A DNA stretch of 64,000 nt, taken from a virus. The stretch is taken from IMG/VR virus record IMGVR_UViG_3300031787_007614, positions 62,001 to 126,000 of that record; one strand, given 5' to 3'. Shown one piece after another: positions 1,738 through 46,064 of the stretch; the first letter of the stretch is position 1, and each line of letters begins with the position of its first letter. Below the pieces are notes generated by a model, which saw nothing but the letters and a program-made list of their open reading frames with translations, was not told the origin of the DNA and did no database searches. The translations under genes and the position numbers were made by a program.

Positions 1738-4009
1738 TGTCCACCACTATAATTCCATCAACATTTACACTTGCAATCACTTCCACAGGTGCGTCCGCTT
1801 GAACATCAAACACAATTTTGTCCGCCACAACATCCGCAGTGATAGTACAATCACGCAAGCGATCAAACAGGATCTTCTTGCTCAACGGCACACGAATCAG
1901 TTCATCAATCTTCCTCGAGAGTGGTCGCGCACCCAGCTTCGAATCATAGCCCTTGTCAGCAAGCAGGTCAACTGCGCCTTCGGATAAGTTGAGACGTATA
2001 CCTTTTGCAAGCAAACTCGTTTTGAGTTCATCCACAAACTTGACCACAACTTTCTTGATTGCCAAAGTATCCAGCTTGGAGAATTTAACAATTTGGTCGA
2101 TTCTGTTGCGTAGTTCAGGCTTGAAAAACTCTTTGAGAGCTCGGTCGTCCTCACCAGTCTTTTCAAAGCTGCCAAAGCCAATGTTGTTTGCTTCACTGTC
2201 CCGTGCTCCTAAGTTTGAAGTCATGATAATGATGGTATTCTTGCAGTTGGCTTTCTTGCCGTTCGAACTGGTAATAACACCTTCATCCAGCATCTGCAAC
2301 AAGATGTTGGTAACATCAGGGTGCGCCTTTTCAATCTCATCAAACAATATTACTGCGAAGGGATTCTTGCTGATGTCAGAGATCAGTTTGCCGCCACCTA
2401 CATTGCCATCTTCAAATCCCACATAACCCGGAGGCGCACCAATAAGGCTGCTGACTGAATGACGCTCTTGGAATTCACTCATGTCATATTTCAGCAGTTT
2501 CATATCCAAATTGTCACTCAACAGTCGTGCTAGTTCTGTTTTACCTGTGCCTGTTGGGCCCAAGAACAAGAAACTCGCCATGGGCTTTTTGTCATTGGCA
2601 ATGCCAGCAAAGTTGATGTACACACGTTCCAGCACTGAATCAACTGCTGAATCTTGTCCGTACAATTTCTGCTTGATGTTGCCTTCAAGATCCACAATCT
2701 TAGCTGAACGTTCGTTTTGCAGTTTGTCTGTGGGCACACCAGTCACACGAGTCAACTGTTCTTCAATCATGGCCTTGGTAACTACTACTGTGCCCAGATC
2801 TTTCACACGCTCTCTAGCACAGGCTGCATCAATCAAGTCAATTGATTTGTCAGGATTCTTACGATCGTGTATGTAACGATTGGCCAGTTCCACAGCCGCA
2901 GTCATTGCTTCAGTTTCAATCAGCACATTATGAAACGTTTCGAGCCGGGGAGATAGACCAATAAGAATCTGCTCCGTGGTTGCAGTATCTGGTTCATCAA
3001 TTGACAAGCGGTAGAATCTGCGCATGAGTGCGCGATCTTTCTCAAATGATTCATAGTATTCTTCCCAGGTGGTCGACGCCACAACTTTCAAGTTGCCTTT
3101 GGTAATAGCAGGTTTCAGCATGTTAGCAAAGTCAAGTGAACTGTTAGAGCCTGAACCTGCGCCACGCATGGTGTGTGCTTCGTCAATGAACAAGATACAT
3201 TTCTTCTTGGTTTCAAGAGCAGCTATTACTGCTTTGAATTTTTCTTCAAACTCACCGCGATACTTTGATCCTGCCAACAATGACCCAATTTCCAGGCTCC
3301 ACACTTCGTGATCCTTAAGAAACTCTGGCACACGACCAGCCACAATTTCCTGTGCTAGTCCTTCCACAATGTGTGTTTTGCCCACACCAGGATCACCTAC
3401 CATCAGCACGTTGGCTTTGAAACGGCGTGCCAGTGTGGTGACCATTTCTTGAACTTCTGTGGCTCGCCCAATCATGGGCTCCAGACGATTGCCGCGAGCC
3501 GCACCTGTGAGATCTGTACAGTACTCAGTGAGTATTTCTGTGGCCTGTGCTTGACTCAGCTTGGCGTCTGAGTGAGTGTAGGTCTTTTGCCAATGATCCA
3601 CAAACTCCTGTTTCTTCACACCATACTTCAACAAGAAGTAGTGTGCATGACTGTTGGTTTCTGCCATGATTGAAAGATACACATCAATCACAGTGAGTGT
3701 TCTGCGTCCAGTAAACATGACCTGTACATTGGCACGATTGAAAATGCGTTCCAGTGCAGTGGTCTTTCGAGGTTGTATATCTGCGCTTTTACTCACAATA
3801 GAAATCAAGCTGTTGAGGTAGCTGTCTACTTCTTGATCCAGCATGCCAGAGTCGGTGCCAAATTTGTCCAGAGTTTTTCTAAATGGCTGGTGCCGTATCA
3901 GGGCCAACAGCAAATGTTCTGTGGTCACGTATTCGTGACTTTTGGAACGAGCCAATTCAATGGCGTCTTCTACGATACTTTCGAGTTCAGAATGTTGTGA
4001 CATGGGCAT
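1727..4009 (-). CDS. clpA: ClpA-type AAA+ protein unfoldase
   Basis: This is a 760-residue protein, close to the length of bacterial ClpA. It has an N-terminal Clp_N repeat region (about 8-145). The first AAA+ module has Walker A GDPGVGKT (205-212), Walker B near 273-279 and an AGSKYRG pore loop. The second has GPTGTGKT (484-491), Walker B ILFDEIE and pore motif GAPPGYVGF. There is no ClpB-type middle domain. An IGF tripeptide at 610-612 sits where ClpA carries its ClpP-docking IGL/F loop. The family unfolds proteins with ATP and feeds them to ClpP, and a complete clpP lies at 62.9-63.5 kb. A TTGCAT/TACAAT promoter precedes the gene. Confidence 0.93.
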   Translation of the reverse strand: MPMSQHSELESIVEDAIELARSKSHEYVTTEHLLLALIRHQPFRKTLDKFGTDSGMLDQEVDSYLNSLISIVSKSADIQPRKTTALERIFNRANVQVMFTGRRTLTVIDVYLSIMAETNSHAHYFLLKYGVKKQEFVDHWQKTYTHSDAKLSQAQATEILTEYCTDLTGAARGNRLEPMIGRATEVQEMVTTLARRFKANVLMVGDPGVGKTHIVEGLAQEIVAGRVPEFLKDHEVWSLEIGSLLAGSKYRGEFEEKFKAVIAALETKKKCILFIDEAHTMRGAGSGSNSSLDFANMLKPAITKGNLKVVASTTWEEYYESFEKDRALMRRFYRLSIDEPDTATTEQILIGLSPRLETFHNVLIETEAMTAAVELANRYIHDRKNPDKSIDLIDAACARERVKDLGTVVVTKAMIEEQLTRVTGVPTDKLQNERSAKIVDLEGNIKQKLYGQDSAVDSVLERVYINFAGIANDKKPMASFLFLGPTGTGKTELARLLSDNLDMKLLKYDMSEFQERHSVSSLIGAPPGYVGFEDGNVGGGKLISDISKNPFAVILFDEIEKAHPDVTNILLQMLDEGVITSSNGKKANCKNTIIIMTSNLGARDSEANNIGFGSFEKTGEDDRALKEFFKPELRNRIDQIVKFSKLDTLAIKKVVVKFVDELKTSLLAKGIRLNLSEGAVDLLADKGYDSKLGARPLSRKIDELIRVPLSKKILFDRLRDCTITADVVADKIVFDVQADAPVEVIASVNVDGIIVVDNEK

Positions 4010-4072: not shown

Positions 4073-4849
4073 TTATTTGTGATGCTTTTGGATAGCTTCA
4101 CGAATTTCTGGGGCAATGTGTATGGGCAATTCGGTTGATATGCGAACAAACGCATCGCCCTGCTGACCTTGACGATTGGGCAGACCACGACCTTTGAGTC
4201 TTAGCAGTGTGCCCGGTTGAGTGCCCGACGGCACAGTCATAGACAATTCATTGCCTAGCAAATCTCTAACTCGAATGTCCGCACCCAATATCAAATCAAA
4301 CACATTGATTTTGCGATTGGTAATCAAGTTTAGTCCTTGCCGTTCCCAGTTTGGATCTGGTTGCACTCGATACTGCACCACTAGATCTGCGCCACCTGGG
4401 CCCAGGCCTTGGTATTGCACATTGTCTCCGTCGTCAATGCCACGCGGTACTTCAATTTCAACTGCTTGGGCACCTTGCTGTGTACCAATGGTCACTGTGC
4501 GCTGTCCACCAGTTGCAACGTCAGCAAGACTGATCCAGAGACTCATTCTCACATGACCTCTACGAGCTTGCTGTTGCGCAAAGTTCTGTCCAAACATGCT
4601 TGAAAAAATATCATTCATGTTGAAGTGTGTGCCGTTGGGGAATCCCCCAAACTGTGGGCGTGGATTGTTGTACTCAGCTCGTTTGGCTTCGTCGCCTAGA
4701 GTGTCGTAGGCTGCTTGTATCTCTTGGAACTTGGCTGTATCGCCGCCCTTGTCCGGATGATGCTGGCTGGCCAGCCGACGGAAAGCTCGTTTGATTTCGT
4801 CTTGTGTGGCAGTTCGAGCAACACCTAGTGTTGCATAGTGATCGGTCAT
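4073..4849 (-). CDS. J-domain co-chaperone (DnaJ/CbpA type)
   Basis: This 258-residue protein starts with a J domain that carries the HPD tripeptide (31-33), needed to stimulate the DnaK ATPase. A short Gly/Phe/Asn-rich linker follows, then a DnaJ C-terminal substrate-binding domain (about 100-250). The cysteine-rich zinc repeats of classical DnaJ are absent, so it is CbpA-like and shorter than host DnaJ (about 375). It lies just upstream of the clpA-type gene and probably delivers substrates to host DnaK. A strong intrinsic terminator lies directly upstream of its start, so it needs its own promoter or read-through. Confidence 0.9.
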   Translation of the reverse strand: MTDHYATLGVARTATQDEIKRAFRRLASQHHPDKGGDTAKFQEIQAAYDTLGDEAKRAEYNNPRPQFGGFPNGTHFNMNDIFSSMFGQNFAQQQARRGHVRMSLWISLADVATGGQRTVTIGTQQGAQAVEIEVPRGIDDGDNVQYQGLGPGGADLVVQYRVQPDPNWERQGLNLITNRKINVFDLILGADIRVRDLLGNELSMTVPSGTQPGTLLRLKGRGLPNRQGQQGDAFVRISTELPIHIAPEIREAIQKHHK

Positions 4850-4850
4850 G

Positions 4851-4884
4851 AAAAAGGCCCTGTATGTTTAATTATACAGGGCCC
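4851..4884 (-). terminator. Rho-independent terminator
   Basis: A perfect 10-bp stem (GGCCCTGTAT, 4856-4865, with ATACAGGGCC, 4874-4883) and an 8-base loop are followed on the minus strand by five T residues. It ends transcription of the 5-12 kb genes just before the J-domain gene. Confidence 0.85.
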
Positions 4885-4900
4885 GGTACTGGTTGTCAAA

Positions 4901-4978
4901 TTAACGAAACTTATTGTAGTAGTCCCAGCACCACCAGCCAATGCCAGCAGCCACCACAACAAACAATAACCATTCCAT
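4901..4978 (-). CDS. Tiny single-pass membrane protein (25 aa)
   Basis: This frame encodes 25 residues: a hydrophobic helix rich in Val, Ala, Leu and Trp, then a short polar tail ending YYNKFR. Its ATG overlaps the TAA of the upstream gene (TAATG), which argues for translation. It lies just before a terminator at the end of the putative lysis and virion operon. A role in the envelope is likely; more cannot be said. Confidence 0.5.
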   Translation of the reverse strand: MEWLLFVVVAAGIGWWCWDYYNKFR

Positions 4979-5184
4979 TACTTTTTCTCCGGCACTTTGG
5001 TGCCATCTAGTTTTTTGTGCTGTTTGACTTCTTTACAGCTTTGCTTGGTCTTGCCTGTTTTGGGATCTTTTACTTCCTTGCCGTCTTTCTTTACGTCAAC
5101 GCAGACTCGTTTGGTTTCTTTGGCTTCGTCAGCAATTGCTGGCAAACTAAGAATTAATCCTGCTACAAATATAATATTTTTCAT
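4978..5184 (-). CDS. Small secreted lysine-rich protein
   Basis: This 68-residue protein has a signal peptide of about 18 residues with a probable cleavage site after AIA. The mature part is short, very rich in Lys and contains two cysteines (near 28 and 50) that could form a disulfide in the periplasm. The family is not recognised. An AAAGGA ribosome site precedes the ATG. It lies beside the putative holin gene. Confidence 0.7.
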   Translation of the reverse strand: MKNIIFVAGLILSLPAIADEAKETKRVCVDVKKDGKEVKDPKTGKTKQSCKEVKQHKKLDGTKVPEKK

Positions 5185-5205
5185 TTTGATTTTCCTTTTT
5201 AGTTA

Positions 5206-5742
5206 TTATCGTTCTGGATAGTCAGTTATGGCTGGCGGAGCTTTTTTACCACCAAACCCAATGGTTACTTCAGTAAATCCAGCCGCTGGTGCTCCAAAGC
5301 CTGTTGCAGGTGCGCCTCCAAATGCGCTTCCGCCTCCCAGGGGTTGTGAGCCCCAGGTGTTTGTGGTTGGTGCACCAAAACCACCGGGTGCGGCTGGCTG
5401 TTGTACTGATCCCGGAGGCGTATATGTTGTACCGACATTTGATGGTAAGTTGATTCCGCCATTGTTGGCTCCTCCTAGTTTTTCTTGTGTGCGACCATAA
5501 GCCGCAATACCCAGCACAGCACCCATGGCAATGTGATACAGGCCTGCACCTTGCAAGGTGATAGGTTGCCACTGCACGTTGACTTGACCTTTTGAAAGGC
5601 TTTGTAGTATAGACCACAACACTGGAAATATCACAAAATCTGCAATGCAGGTCAGCATGTATGACCAACCCATCATGGGCCGCCATTTTGAGTTCATCCA
5701 GTCTTCTTTTTTCTTTTCTGATTCTGACATTTTTGTTGTCAT
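5206..5742 (-). CDS. Putative holin (3TM type)
   Basis: This is a 178-residue membrane protein. The charged N-terminus leads to a WRP motif (20-22), followed by hydrophobic segments at about 24-48 and 64-82. This resembles the DUF3154/3TM holin family found in gene-transfer agents and marine phages. The C-terminal half (about 95-165) is low-complexity Gly/Ala/Pro/Thr sequence and ends near ITDYPER. Its place near an endolysin and putative spanins supports a lysis role, but the assignment rests on the WRP motif and topology. Confidence 0.55.
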   Translation of the reverse strand: MTTKMSESEKKKEDWMNSKWRPMMGWSYMLTCIADFVIFPVLWSILQSLSKGQVNVQWQPITLQGAGLYHIAMGAVLGIAAYGRTQEKLGGANNGGINLPSNVGTTYTPPGSVQQPAAPGGFGAPTTNTWGSQPLGGGSAFGGAPATGFGAPAAGFTEVTIGFGGKKAPPAITDYPER

Positions 5743-38975: not shown

Positions 38976-39643
38976 TATTGTTCCCTCTTTGTTGGCATTA
39001 ATCGATAACCTAGACCTTTGACAAATTCCCATGACATTGAGTCTGCTTCAAAGTCTTCTCGCATGGCTGTGCCACCATGCAGTTTGCAAAAACTATATTC
39101 TGTTGCGTAAAAATTCATTCCAGTAAAATAACTTATGTTTGCTAATCTTTCAAGCCCCAGGCCATGATTGTGAGTACACATCTGCCAACTGTGCCCGGCC
39201 ACTATCCAATGTCTACAAGGCTCCGGTAACAAGGAAGTGTGATGTAAAAAATCAACATCATTGTTAAAAAAAATACTTTGTTCGTTGTCTAACAAATATC
39301 GTTGCACAAGATGTGATGTTTGCTCATGTTGTCCTGAACTTTTTAAGATATTTAATGCAACCCAAAGATCTGCGTCTGTTGGTGTTTCTGTTGGATTGTT
39401 TCGTAGATCATTATTGTAAGTCCAACAGTACCGCTGAAAAGTGTTACGCAGACTCCGATCGTTCCAGTCAAATCGATTGTGTGTTAGGCTGTTGACTATA
39501 CATTTGAAATTGTATTCTCGCAACTGATGTATGAGATTTGCATAAAAATAGTCTTTAAAAAATTGCCCGCCTGCAGGCTCCCAACAATCCAACAAGATCA
39601 ATCCATCTACAGTTGGTATTGTGTTGGTTTTTGAAACTATCAT
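38975..39643 (-). CDS. Hypothetical protein
   Basis: This 222-residue protein starts with a polar segment, then a hydrophobic strand and acidic residue (GLILLDCWEP, 14-23) that resembles an alpha/beta hydrolase or isochorismatase-like first strand. It has several His and Trp residues (HLVQRYLLD, HHTSLL). I assign no family. It overlaps the infA gene by 4 bases and the next gene by one. Confidence 0.7.
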   Translation of the reverse strand: MIVSKTNTIPTVDGLILLDCWEPAGGQFFKDYFYANLIHQLREYNFKCIVNSLTHNRFDWNDRSLRNTFQRYCWTYNNDLRNNPTETPTDADLWVALNILKSSGQHEQTSHLVQRYLLDNEQSIFFNNDVDFLHHTSLLPEPCRHWIVAGHSWQMCTHNHGLGLERLANISYFTGMNFYATEYSFCKLHGGTAMREDFEADSMSWEFVKGLGYRLMPTKREQ

Positions 39644-39861
39644 TTGCGTCTTGTGATACGACCTCGTGATAGATCGTATGGGCTGAATACAATTTCTACT
39701 CGATCGCCAAGAAGAACTTTGATGTTGTTGGTCCGCATACGCCCTGACAGGTATCCAATCACCACATTATCTATGCTATCTAATCTGATGCGAAACATAG
39801 CGGCAGGCAAAATCTCCTCTACTGTTCCTTCCATACTGATTGTTTCTTCTTGTTTGGCCAT
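39640..39861 (-). CDS. infA: Translation initiation factor IF-1
   Basis: This 73-residue protein is a full-length IF-1: S1-type OB fold, EETISMEGTVEEILP at 5-19, then MFRIRL, a GYLSGRMRTNNI segment and the closing GDRVEIVFSPYDLSRGRITRR. In bacteria IF-1 sits in the ribosomal A site and works with IF-2 and IF-3 in start-codon selection. Length and motifs are canonical, so it is probably active. It lies between an unknown gene and a WYL_2-like gene. Phage copies are rare as far as I know. Confidence 0.95.
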   Translation of the reverse strand: MAKQEETISMEGTVEEILPAAMFRIRLDSIDNVVIGYLSGRMRTNNIKVLLGDRVEIVFSPYDLSRGRITRRK

Positions 39862-40298: not shown

Positions 40299-41459
40299 TC
40301 ATGCTAAAAATTTTGTCAATGCCAGCACCACATTGGTACCACCAAATGCAAAGCTGTTGTTCAAACACACATCTTGTTCATGCTCAACAACCTCAGTTGG
40401 TAGGTACACACCTTCAGGAATTGCAGGATCAGGATCAGTTAGATTCCAATTGGGAATAATTTGATTTGTTTTTAGCACAGCCAAACAAGCCAGCAGTTCC
40501 ATGGCTCCAGAGTTGCCCAACAAGTGCCCGTGCAGTGCCTTGGTTGAACTGATGGGAACGCCACTGCCAAATACTTTTTGTATACTACTTAATTCAACCA
40601 AGTCTCCAACAGGTGTGCCTGTGCCATGTGCGTTGATATAGGTCACACGACTTGGATCAATACCATTCAGTGCAGATTGCATGGCAGAGATCTGACCTTG
40701 TTCACTGGGCTTGGTTAGAGTTTCGCTGCCACAACTGATACCATATCCCACAATTTCTGCATGTATCACAGCATTTCGAACCAGCGCATGATCCAAACTT
40801 TCTAGAACATAAACAACACTGCCTTCGCCCAAGATGATGCCATCTCGTGTGGCACTGAATGGTGCAGACTTTGTGCCCATGGCCCGCATGGCCCGCCATT
40901 GGTCCACTAAAATGGGACTGAGGCAAAATTCGGCGCCGCCGGCTGCCATAACGCTGACCTCGCCATGTTTGATGGCTTTGTATGCTTCTCCAATAGACAC
41001 ACTGCTGGAAGCACATGCCGCTGTGTGTGTGAACACAGGACCTGTGATGTTGTCTTTTGACGCAATAAAACTGGCTGCGCCACTGCTCATTGATGATACC
41101 AAACTGTTTGGACGCACTCGACCTTTATCCTGGAATTCAAGAATGGTGTTGTTCACTTCGTAGGCAGCACCTGCGCCTGTACCAATGTAAACACCATCCA
41201 CACTGGTTTTTGCATCTGCTTTTGCTTGTTGGTATGCCAGCATGGTGGCGCGAGCAAACAAACTTGTGGCCGCAGTATCATAACGATCAAATTGATCATT
41301 GATGTTGCTGTGTCCTAATCCAACCTTGGCAGTGTTGGCCTGGAGAGTTTCACTAAAAATGATGCCTGATGTTCCTGCATACATGGCAGCAACAACTTGA
41401 TCATAACTATTGCCCAATGGAGTAATGCAACCCACTCCTGTAATAACTACTCTATTCAT
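40299..41459 (-). CDS. fabF: Beta-ketoacyl-ACP synthase II (KAS II)
   Basis: This 386-residue thiolase-fold enzyme has the complete Cys-His-His triad: Cys149 (TAACASS), His278 (NAHGTGT) and His310 (KALHGH), with Lys307. A C-terminal FAFGGTN loop is also present. It condenses acyl-ACP with malonyl-ACP and elongates fatty acids. It is about 25 residues shorter than host FabF. It overlaps the desaturase gene by 4 bases (ATGA), which overlaps the ACP gene by 4, so the three form one translationally coupled unit. Confidence 0.95.
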   Translation of the reverse strand: MNRVVITGVGCITPLGNSYDQVVAAMYAGTSGIIFSETLQANTAKVGLGHSNINDQFDRYDTAATSLFARATMLAYQQAKADAKTSVDGVYIGTGAGAAYEVNNTILEFQDKGRVRPNSLVSSMSSGAASFIASKDNITGPVFTHTAACASSSVSIGEAYKAIKHGEVSVMAAGGAEFCLSPILVDQWRAMRAMGTKSAPFSATRDGIILGEGSVVYVLESLDHALVRNAVIHAEIVGYGISCGSETLTKPSEQGQISAMQSALNGIDPSRVTYINAHGTGTPVGDLVELSSIQKVFGSGVPISSTKALHGHLLGNSGAMELLACLAVLKTNQIIPNWNLTDPDPAIPEGVYLPTEVVEHEQDVCLNNSFAFGGTNVVLALTKFLA

Positions 41460-42205
41460 GTTTTGATCAGTCGAATAAATTGTGCCGCATAGTCAACTTC
41501 CCACCACTGCTCACGTTGATTCCACCGTTGTGGATTGGCATGATGATTGTTGTGCCATTCTCCAATGACTAGGGCTAGATAGCTATTTGAACTGGTATCC
41601 TTTGTGGCATGATTCTGATAGGTGGTCAAACCGTGAGTGTGACACACGGTGTTCACAAAACCCATGGCCAACAATGCTCCTGCATTAGCAATACTATAGC
41701 ACAAAAACAATACGGGGTCAATGGCCAATAGCACCAATGCAAACGTCAAAACAATCAATGCGTAATAATTGTGAGTGAACTTCATCCAAGGATCTCTTAG
41801 ATCTCTAATGCCATCCCACATGCTGAGATTGGACAAGTTCCAATTGAACAGTATCACATTGAGAATTCCAATGTCTGGAGCATGTGGATCTTGTGCAGTG
41901 TCTGTGTGTACATGATGGGCTCGGTGGATGATGGAATAACCAACTGGTGACCCAAAACAGGCCAAACAAGAACTCACACACAAAAATGCATGCCAAAACG
42001 GAGTGACTGTGTAACTGCGGTGTGAGAAGTATCTATGCAATCCTGCATGGTGTGAGATGAACAACAAAAAACTGTAAAAGAACACAAGGTATATTGCGTA
42101 CCACCAATGCCATTGATATACCAATACTGGTATGCCCAGCATCGCAACAATCAATTGAACTGAGAGAACCTGTTTGGTTCTGTCAGGATCACCTTGCCAA
42201 ATCAT
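41456..42205 (-). CDS. Membrane fatty-acid desaturase (delta-9 type)
   Basis: This 249-residue membrane protein has four hydrophobic helices and three histidine boxes that bind the di-iron centre: HRYFSH (57-62), HRAHH (94-98) and HNNHH (218-222). An extra His pair lies near 189-191. This is the acyl-CoA/acyl-lipid delta-9 desaturase family and not the soluble acyl-ACP type. It introduces a cis double bond using O2. Cyanophages are known to carry related lipid desaturases. The gene lies between an ACP gene and fabF. Confidence 0.92.
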   Translation of the reverse strand: MIWQGDPDRTKQVLSVQLIVAMLGIPVLVYQWHWWYAIYLVFFYSFLLFISHHAGLHRYFSHRSYTVTPFWHAFLCVSSCLACFGSPVGYSIIHRAHHVHTDTAQDPHAPDIGILNVILFNWNLSNLSMWDGIRDLRDPWMKFTHNYYALIVLTFALVLLAIDPVLFLCYSIANAGALLAMGFVNTVCHTHGLTTYQNHATKDTSSNSYLALVIGEWHNNHHANPQRWNQREQWWEVDYAAQFIRLIKT

Positions 42206-42480
42206 TTTTTAACACGATTGACCGGATCGTTCACAGCTTCGGTCAAACTGTCAATGATTTCTGCCAAGTTAGCTGGCTGACTCATGTCAGCAGAGTTTAC
42301 TTTGATGCCAAGTTCATCTTCAACATCAAATATCATTTCAATCACAGACAGTGAATCAATCTTGGGATTGATATTTTGCAAGTCTGCAAGAGGTGCATCC
42401 TCTGCAAAGTTGTCAATGTCTAGATCGTACTGTTTTTTGCAAATCCTCAAAATAACTGTTTTGACTTCGTCGCGTGTCAT
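42202..42480 (-). CDS. acpP: Acyl carrier protein
   Basis: This 92-residue acidic four-helix protein carries the phosphopantetheine attachment motif DSL at 42-44 (Ser43), followed by the usual VIEMIFDVEDELGI helix. A short basic tail (NRVKK) extends the C-terminus. It needs a phosphopantetheinyl transferase, which is not seen here and so would come from the host. It is the first gene of the ACP-desaturase-KAS unit. Confidence 0.93.
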   Translation of the reverse strand: MTRDEVKTVILRICKKQYDLDIDNFAEDAPLADLQNINPKIDSLSVIEMIFDVEDELGIKVNSADMSQPANLAEIIDSLTEAVNDPVNRVKK

Positions 42481-42499
42481 GTTTTACCTTTCTATAATT

Positions 42500-44721: not shown

Positions 44722-45534
44722 TCAAAACTTGCAGACCGGTATTGGCAGCATCTTGTGCATGTTTCTAGCACGAATGTCTTGGTACCGCTTGAGTTTTTTT
44801 CTATCATCTGCTGACAATTTGGCGCTGCCAGGCATGTCGGAGTCCACAGCCTTGCATCGTTGCAAAAAGTCCAAGGCCATCATGCGCTCAAGATCTGGGT
44901 AGCTCATGCCCAGTTGACCTTCGTCTGTGCGCCCATCATCCCACAAGCCGTCGGTGGGTGCGGCATCAATGATTTCTTGTGGCAGCCCAAACTCTCTACC
45001 CATATCCCATACTTCTGTTTTCATGCAGTCGCCGATGGGGCTGATATCCACACCACCATCACCATACTTGGTAAAGAAGCCCACACCAAAGTCTTCCACT
45101 CGGTTGCCGGTGCCTACTACAATACCACCATGGCATTGTGCAATTTGGTACAAGGTCATCATACGCAATCTAGCACGTGAGTTGGCAAAAGCCAGTTCAA
45201 CTTGTGATGCATTTTCTGCATCACAAAATGGCACAGTTTTCTTTTCAAACGCAGAGAACACAGACGTCAAATCCATGCTCATGTGTGTGACGTTTTTGTA
45301 GCGTTCCATCAACCAGGTAGCCTGCATTGAACTGCGATTGTCCAGCTTCTTGTTTTGGCGGATGGGCATTTGCACCACAATGGTTGTGAGTCCTGTTTCG
45401 GCGCATAATGCACTCACAACAGATGAGTCAATCCCACCTGAGATCCCTACAACTAGTGTAGAGATCTTGTTTTTTGTTGCGTATTGTCGGATCCATTTTA
45501 CAATGTGCTTGATACGTTGCTTTGGTGTTACCAT
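44722..45534 (-). CDS. nadE: NAD+ synthetase
   Basis: The ATG at 45534 follows GGAGGT directly, and the longer frame is ignored. The 270-residue protein has the PP-loop SGGIDSS (32-38), GTGNRVEDFGVGFFTKYGDG and the late RTDEGQLG segment of ammonia-dependent NadE. It amidates nicotinate adenine dinucleotide to NAD+. No glutaminase domain is present. Together with the nucleotidyltransferase at 12.2 kb it may support NAD supply during infection or under NAD-depleting defence; this is inference. Confidence 0.93.
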   Translation of the reverse strand: MVTPKQRIKHIVKWIRQYATKNKISTLVVGISGGIDSSVVSALCAETGLTTIVVQMPIRQNKKLDNRSSMQATWLMERYKNVTHMSMDLTSVFSAFEKKTVPFCDAENASQVELAFANSRARLRMMTLYQIAQCHGGIVVGTGNRVEDFGVGFFTKYGDGGVDISPIGDCMKTEVWDMGREFGLPQEIIDAAPTDGLWDDGRTDEGQLGMSYPDLERMMALDFLQRCKAVDSDMPGSAKLSADDRKKLKRYQDIRARNMHKMLPIPVCKF

Positions 45535-46064
45535 TTGACCTCCGGCTTGGGCATTGCTTTTAGTTTGTTCCATACTTCTGCTTTTTCCTTGCATTTCTTT
45601 TCCAGCTTGCGATAGCGTTCTCCCAGTCGGCGCAGATCATCCCACTCTCGTTCCAGTTCAGGATTTGGTGTGAGAATGTTCAGGCGTTCTTCAACCTTTT
45701 CCATCCAGTCTTTAAGACTCTTGCCATTGATGTCAAGATCAGCTTTGTCCCCTCTAAGACTCATCTTGCCACCTTGTTCAATCGTAGATCCTACTGCACT
45801 GTAATTTGCACCAATTGTAAAACTGCCTGTGGTTGTGTTGTTTGTGGTCCAAACAGTGTTGGAGCCAGTGGCACCGTTGAGTCCACCAATGGTGTATCCG
45901 CCAGTGATGTTGGTGGTATCACTTATGATTACAGTTGGCATGGTATTTGCATCAAATGCACTTACCAATGGGGGAATAGCACCGTAAGAAGGGTCGGTTG
46001 TTAGGTCGTTATATTCGTATTCTTTGAGGTTGAGGTTTACCCAGTCGTTTTTATAAGTTGCCAT
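45528..46064 (-). CDS. Phage protein with C-terminal coiled coil
   Basis: This 178-residue protein has a Thr/Gly/Asn-rich beta part (about 40-100) and a charged helix with coiled-coil pattern (110-175: LKDWMEKVEERLNIL, ERYRKLEKKCKEKAEVW). A LDINGKSL joint links them. Similar helices occur in T4-like phage proteins of unknown role. It overlaps nadE by 7 bases and the next small gene by 28. Confidence 0.75.
   Translation of the reverse strand: MATYKNDWVNLNLKEYEYNDLTTDPSYGAIPPLVSAFDANTMPTVIISDTTNITGGYTIGGLNGATGSNTVWTTNNTTTGSFTIGANYSAVGSTIEQGGKMSLRGDKADLDINGKSLKDWMEKVEERLNILTPNPELEREWDDLRRLGERYRKLEKKCKEKAEVWNKLKAMPKPEVKW

Follow-up and report, generated by a model that had tools for sequence, protein, structure and literature searches.

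Phage desaturases are usually viewed as lone fluidity genes, and the lipid desaturases of cyanophages are single genes that are not known to be linked to an acyl carrier protein (ACP) or beta-ketoacyl-ACP synthase (KAS). Several described systems resemble parts of the locus reported here. The lipid desaturases of cyanophages (Roitman et al., 2018, as cited in PMC8224337) are likewise phage-encoded membrane desaturases. For phages of Lake Baikal Nitrospirota, a single acyl-CoA desaturase whose best matches are in the host has been reported, and neither an ACP nor a KAS (PMC7678222); here the likeness is that of a freshwater phage membrane desaturase. Alteromonas phage R22Y encodes a single ACP, for which a role in fatty-acid metabolism was proposed (PMC11705849), and is similar in having a phage-linked ACP. 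Prophages of the Rhodobacteraceae carry fabG-acpP-fabF, also with a proposed fatty-acid role, and in them, as in our locus, an ACP and a KAS are both phage-linked (PMC8224337). These prophages, however, keep the order of a Fab operon with fabG and have no desaturase, whereas our locus has no fabG, a KAS of a dedicated lineage, and a desaturase in between. Assignment to the prophage type was rejected, as fabG is not found upstream of the ACP gene and the phage has no FabG homologue detectable with the E. coli query.

In the JamB/JamC alkyne pathway, a membrane desaturase works with a dedicated ACP; both the JamABC cassette and the polyyne clusters include a fatty acyl-AMP ligase, and the polyyne clusters also have a thioesterase, a rubredoxin and several desaturases (PMC8406139). 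The phage cassette shares with these pathways the membrane desaturase and the dedicated ACP, but has a KAS where they have the ligase. A JamABC-type cassette was also rejected, as no fatty acyl-AMP ligase was found among the tested neighbours of the desaturase and the ACP, and the one AMP-ligase detected is at 315.7 kb of the record. Finally, dedicated ACP-KAS pairs of the Burkholderiaceae (L289-L293) comprise the same two families, often joined by the same 4-base overlap, and are the nearest relatives of the phage KAS; these pairs, at 38-42% identity, are without a desaturase and have neighbouring genes of alpha/beta-hydrolase-like or type III PKS-like kind. The first-pass annotation knew of no phage unit that joins a carrier, a desaturase and a condensing enzyme, and our literature search found none among open-licence papers, an absence that is uncertain. 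Phage lipid genes are thus already known; the combination of ACP, desaturase and KAS is new as far as the open-licence literature shows.

Layout and identity of the cassette

The window, that is, the whole stretch of 64,000 nucleotides that was analysed, covers positions 62001-126000 of a virus record that is 364,404 bases long. Because the record has matches to terminase (phrog_36964, 6e-118), portal (phrog_213, 9e-110) and tail sheath (phrog_10581, 3e-204) proteins, the source is, by these matches, a contractile-tailed T4-like jumbo phage, in line with the first-pass annotation, which had spoken of a phage; tail genes are also found inside the window itself. On the minus strand, an ACP gene is followed by a gene for a membrane desaturase and then by one for a KAS, with an ATGA overlap at each joint (window positions):

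42202-42480, minus strand: ACP, first cassette gene (92 aa; Ser43 in IDSL; pI 4.3; PF00550, 8.2e-6)
41456-42205, minus strand: membrane fatty-acid desaturase, middle cassette gene (249 aa; three His boxes and N185/H189; SCD1 fold; PF00487, 5e-9)
40299-41459, minus strand: KAS, last cassette gene (386 aa; Cys149-His278-Lys307-His312)
42202-42205, minus strand: ATGA overlap of the ACP and desaturase genes, kept in contigs L025, L026 and L038
41456-41459, minus strand: ATGA overlap of the desaturase and KAS genes, kept in the same three contigs
42487-42493, minus strand: Shine-Dalgarno-like AGAAAGG ahead of the ACP gene (start-region sequence)

All three proteins exceed the curated Pfam cut-offs. 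The ACP, with its PP-binding match, has the features of acyl carrier proteins of type II FAS: the PP-binding fold, small size, acidity, and a serine (Ser43) in a DSL-type motif, the DS of which is invariant among seven phages. It is complete, as first described. When compared with phage isolate records, it gave a single weak match (E 0.07).

The motifs HxxxxH, HxxHH and HxxHH of the desaturase, together with the N185/H189 (NxxxH) pair, are invariant in 43 phage sequences, which bears out the three His boxes noted at the outset. The protein also showed a profile match to SCD1 (1.5e-35), and its AF2 model (pLDDT 89.7) superimposed on the stearoyl-CoA desaturase structures 4ymk/4zyo with TM values of 0.77-0.79. 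With its His boxes, NxxxH pair and SCD1 fold, it is an SCD1-like membrane desaturase of the PF00487 family; the DesA equivalog (NF049918) was rejected, at 59 bits against a cut-off of 400. Among phage isolates, matches to the desaturase came from Pelagibacter phage Mosig (28%) and from two records of Acinetobacter phages (25%), and no cyanophage record matched it at E 1e-3.

The KAS matched both ketoacyl-synt (1.5e-32) and Ketoacyl-synt_C (1.6e-29), and Cys149, His278, Lys307 and His312 are invariant in its phage and bacterial relatives. Its AF2 model (pLDDT 92.4) gave TM values of 0.94-0.95 to FabF/FabB. By its fold and its Cys-His-Lys-His active site the protein is a thiolase-fold beta-ketoacyl-ACP synthase. 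It had been described earlier as a KAS II with an intact active site; the active site is indeed intact, but the protein is not a housekeeping FabF/KAS II (TIGR03150), as it scored 287.8 bits against a cut-off of 493.75 and grouped with dedicated ACP-KAS pairs and not with E. coli FabF. A tblastn search of 50,697 phage records with the KAS returned only matches below 39% identity, which we judged to be mostly bacterial DNA, and among the viral structures of BFVD only two phage KAS-like proteins, at 23% and 15% identity, fitted the KAS model well.

Overlaps of 4 bases are frequent in this phage genome (68 of 327 same-strand neighbours), so that the overlap alone is weak evidence for coupling. 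The real evidence is the conservation of the overlaps together with the missing Shine-Dalgarno sequences: in the start regions inspected, those of the window and of L025, L026 and L038, the desaturase and KAS genes start without one. Since only the ACP gene has such a sequence, translation of the desaturase and the KAS is probably left to the ribosome already engaged on the ACP gene. Near the cassette, the window also encodes translation initiation factor IF-1 (39640-39861, 1.5e-17) and an NAD synthase (44722-45594, 1.4e-49).

Recurrence in other phages and origin of the cassette

The identical three-gene cassette is present in three further IMG/VR records. In addition, diverged ACP-desaturase-KAS cassettes with the same order and overlaps occur in at least three viral contigs, at 65-79% identity to that of the window:

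L025: KAS 76%, desaturase 73%, ACP 79%
L026: KAS 72%, desaturase 65%, ACP 66%
L038: KAS 73%, desaturase 67%, ACP 72%

These relatives were obtained from pattern-seeded scans, the contigs are partial, and the bacterial KAS were first picked by motif. L025 shares broad synteny with the window; around L038, the resemblance to it is limited to the cassette and a few small genes of weak similarity; and in the flanks fetched for L026, no gene besides the cassette matched the window. L026 is also the most distant of the four cassettes for all three genes, which fits a cassette that moves as a unit. Among the four phages, each of the three genes has a dN/dS of about 0.1 (0.08-0.11) in comparisons with unsaturated dS, and the cassette genes are, on this measure, under purifying selection. 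The order and overlaps described in the first-pass annotation thus recur in other viral genomes, while the outcome that would have spoken against it, single-genome origins with broken active sites in relatives, was not seen: the active sites are intact and the cassette is recurrent. As metabolic genes of a phage genome that are conserved and intact, the three qualify as phage-encoded lipid genes.

Other phages have combined similar parts differently. An ACP and a KAS joined by a direct 4-base overlap, without a desaturase, are found in at least three phage contigs (L027, L028 and L030, the last of which encodes a gp32-type single-strand binding protein, phrog_224). In at least nine viral contigs (L268-L276), the gene for a different KAS, of the L044 type, and that for a desaturase are coupled through overlaps of 1-7 bases, and at least three phage contigs (L282, whole; L283:834-11263; L284:5509-18749) have a KAS with 5-8 desaturases. 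These multi-desaturase clusters include Rieske and 2OG-type oxygenases and, as judged by eye, GNAT-like and PP-loop-like genes. No ACP was detected in the KAS-desaturase or multi-desaturase contigs, the records of which are fragments. Judged from these gene contents, the joining of KAS and desaturase is a repeated theme in phages, and the ACP accompanies one KAS clade; the coupling in L268-L276 appears to have arisen independently of the cassette.

In a first tree, the phage KAS formed a clade (100/100) that grouped with dedicated ACP-KAS pairs of the Pseudomonadota (100/97) and not with housekeeping FabF or FabB. In this tree, very long branches led to the short and L044-type KAS, which were excluded from the final one. 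A search across the family of an Oxalobacteraceae genome gave closer ACP-KAS pairs, and in the final tree the phage clade (100/100) is nested (100/96) within the Burkholderiaceae pairs L289-L293, four of the five with the same 4-base overlap as in the phages. The sister pairs L291 and L292 adjoin a gene that, by eye, resembles a type III PKS. The cassette desaturases are monophyletic and fall among mostly phage sequences in the desaturase tree, in which only one bacterial class was densely sampled.

Of 80 bacterial KAS loci, none had a desaturase in the fetched flanks, and neither an ACP nor a KAS was found beside any of 35 bacterial desaturase loci (short flanks). Capture of the whole operon from bacteria was rejected on these two counts, with short flanks for the latter. 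As the phage KAS is nested in the burkholderial pairs and the desaturase is absent from the bacterial KAS loci, the simplest account is that an ACP-KAS pair was captured from a betaproteobacterium and that, in one phage lineage, a desaturase was inserted between the two genes; on the evidence of these trees and loci, this is probably what happened. An alternative order of events is that the desaturase was lost in the other phage lineage.

Other lipid genes of the phage and hints to its host

A profile search found five further membrane desaturases in the record, six in total, with 20-45% mutual identity and complete His boxes. These, a second KAS and a ligase are (record positions):

4549-5313: further desaturase
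134815-135519: further desaturase
162000-162755: further desaturase
348862-349593: further desaturase, overlapping by 4 bases a gene of the PF05118 (Asp/Asn-hydroxylase) family
350333-351115: further desaturase
363305-364276: second, short KAS (323 aa; catalytic residues intact)
315727-316812: AMP-binding ligase without the N-terminal part, about 212 kb from the cassette

One of the further desaturases lies beside a ribonucleotide-reductase-like gene. The PF05118 family includes the lipid hydroxylases LpxO and OlsC. The short KAS has a relative in L280 and would belong to a separate family of short phage KAS. The ligase adjoins, as judged by eye, an SGNH-hydrolase-like gene and glycosyltransferase-like and radical-SAM-like genes; no acyl-AMP ligase was found among the cassette neighbours tested. 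With E. coli queries, we found no homologue of FabD, FabG, FabH or FabZ in the phage, nor was an ACPS or a PlsC-type acyltransferase found in it, so the phage would have to lean on host enzymes for these activities.

The record has about 30 tRNA genes near both its ends and a permuted tmRNA (2616-3134; tag ANDEKFLMAA), with matches from permuted and alpha-type models only. It also encodes an outer-membrane porin of Gram-negative type (1670-2560; Porin_4, 2.8e-25). The plasmid relatives of this porin are all from Burkholderiales, which hints at a betaproteobacterial host. The same record carries, outside the window, curli-type genes at 131057-132944, with CsgF (PF10614, 1e-14) and CsgG (NF011731, 1e-51, under the equivalog cut-off), as well as a curlin-like-repeat protein followed by a FecR-like gene, and a PstS-like phosphate-binding protein at 138084-139109 (PBP_like_2, 1.6e-34).

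Possible functions of the cassette

It seems quite possible, and we adopt it tentatively, that the three proteins form a dedicated phage acyl-ACP line for the elongation and desaturation of acyl chains, aided by enzymes of the host FAS, with an ACP-bound substrate and the final lipid as its putative parts. Host AcpS would add phosphopantetheine to the phage ACP, and the phage KAS, given its intact active site, would lengthen the chain by condensing acyl-ACP with malonyl-ACP. The remaining steps would be supplied by host FabD, FabG, FabZ and an enoyl reductase. The SCD1-type desaturase would then introduce a double bond, most likely into a chain bound to the phage ACP, a reading suggested both by how the genes are arranged and by the JamB/JamC precedent, and host acyltransferases may transfer the longer, unsaturated chain to phospholipid or lipid A in the infected cell. 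The first-pass annotation left open what a membrane desaturase has in common with an ACP; that precedent (PMC8406139) answers the question in principle, but the acyl-AMP ligase of those pathways is missing beside the cassette. The line would have been assembled by placing a desaturase, from a lineage dominated by phages, between the two genes of a dedicated burkholderial ACP-KAS pair, and the other desaturases, together with the PF05118 hydroxylase-family protein, may fit a wider programme of acyl-chain modification.

Counting against an acyl-ACP line, the fold of the desaturase matches acyl-CoA enzymes, and the three parts are separable, as the ACP-KAS contigs without a desaturase and the KAS-desaturase contigs without a detectable ACP indicate. 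The SCD1-type fold and sequence, the ACP-KAS pairs of L027, L028 and L030, and the desaturases without an ACP in many phages would all suit two loosely linked functions: the ACP and KAS would boost fatty-acid synthesis and lengthen the chains, and the desaturase would act separately on finished membrane lipids or acyl-CoA, the role supposed for cyanophage desaturases. The cassette would then be a co-regulated fluidity package, with an ACP that is not the carrier for the desaturase. The position of the desaturase between the other two genes, overlapping both and kept in four phages, would be unnecessary for an enzyme that acts only on lipids, and we consider this explanation somewhat unlikely. 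By analogy with the alkyne and polyyne pathways, in which desaturases act with a dedicated ACP (PMC8406139), the cassette could also serve a specialised, natural-product-like acyl product (a polyunsaturated, acetylenic or hydroxylated chain), made by desaturases, oxygenases and an acyl ligase on an ACP-bound chain. The six desaturases, two KAS, AMP-ligase and Asp/Asn-hydroxylase-family protein of this phage are consistent with such a product, as are the contigs with a KAS, 5-8 desaturases and Rieske and 2OG-type oxygenases and the type III PKS-like gene (by eye) beside L291 and L292. Yet the sole ligase is distant from the cassette and truncated, and the multi-desaturase contigs yielded no ACP, which makes a specialised product decidedly improbable for the cassette. 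That the genes are captured bacterial DNA without a selected function in the phage, either passengers or an assembly chimera, would agree with the bacterial relatives of the ACP-KAS pair, but is very improbable in view of the purifying selection, the presence in four phage lineages with no broken active site found in any relative, the identical cassette in three further records, and the phage structural genes of the record, including the tail genes of the window.

With the acyl-ACP line as the preferred reading, the virus supplies its own acyl carrier and condensing enzyme, overlap-linked to a desaturase, in an arrangement kept in several phage lineages. Having the partner ACP in the same transcript unit makes the substrate question for a phage desaturase directly testable. 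A broader and rather unlikely idea is that large aquatic phages carry natural-product-like acyl pathways, in which a phage ACP or KAS, several desaturases and 2OG/Rieske oxygenases make a chain that the host does not make; if so, such a chain would alter the host envelope or serve as a bioactive compound, and the three-gene cassette would be the simplest, co-translated form of these pathways. Judging from the genes that they carry, these viruses probably alter the fatty-acid make-up of the cells that they infect, and, if the acyl-ACP line is real, some phages have a branch of fatty-acid synthesis of their own at work in the host.
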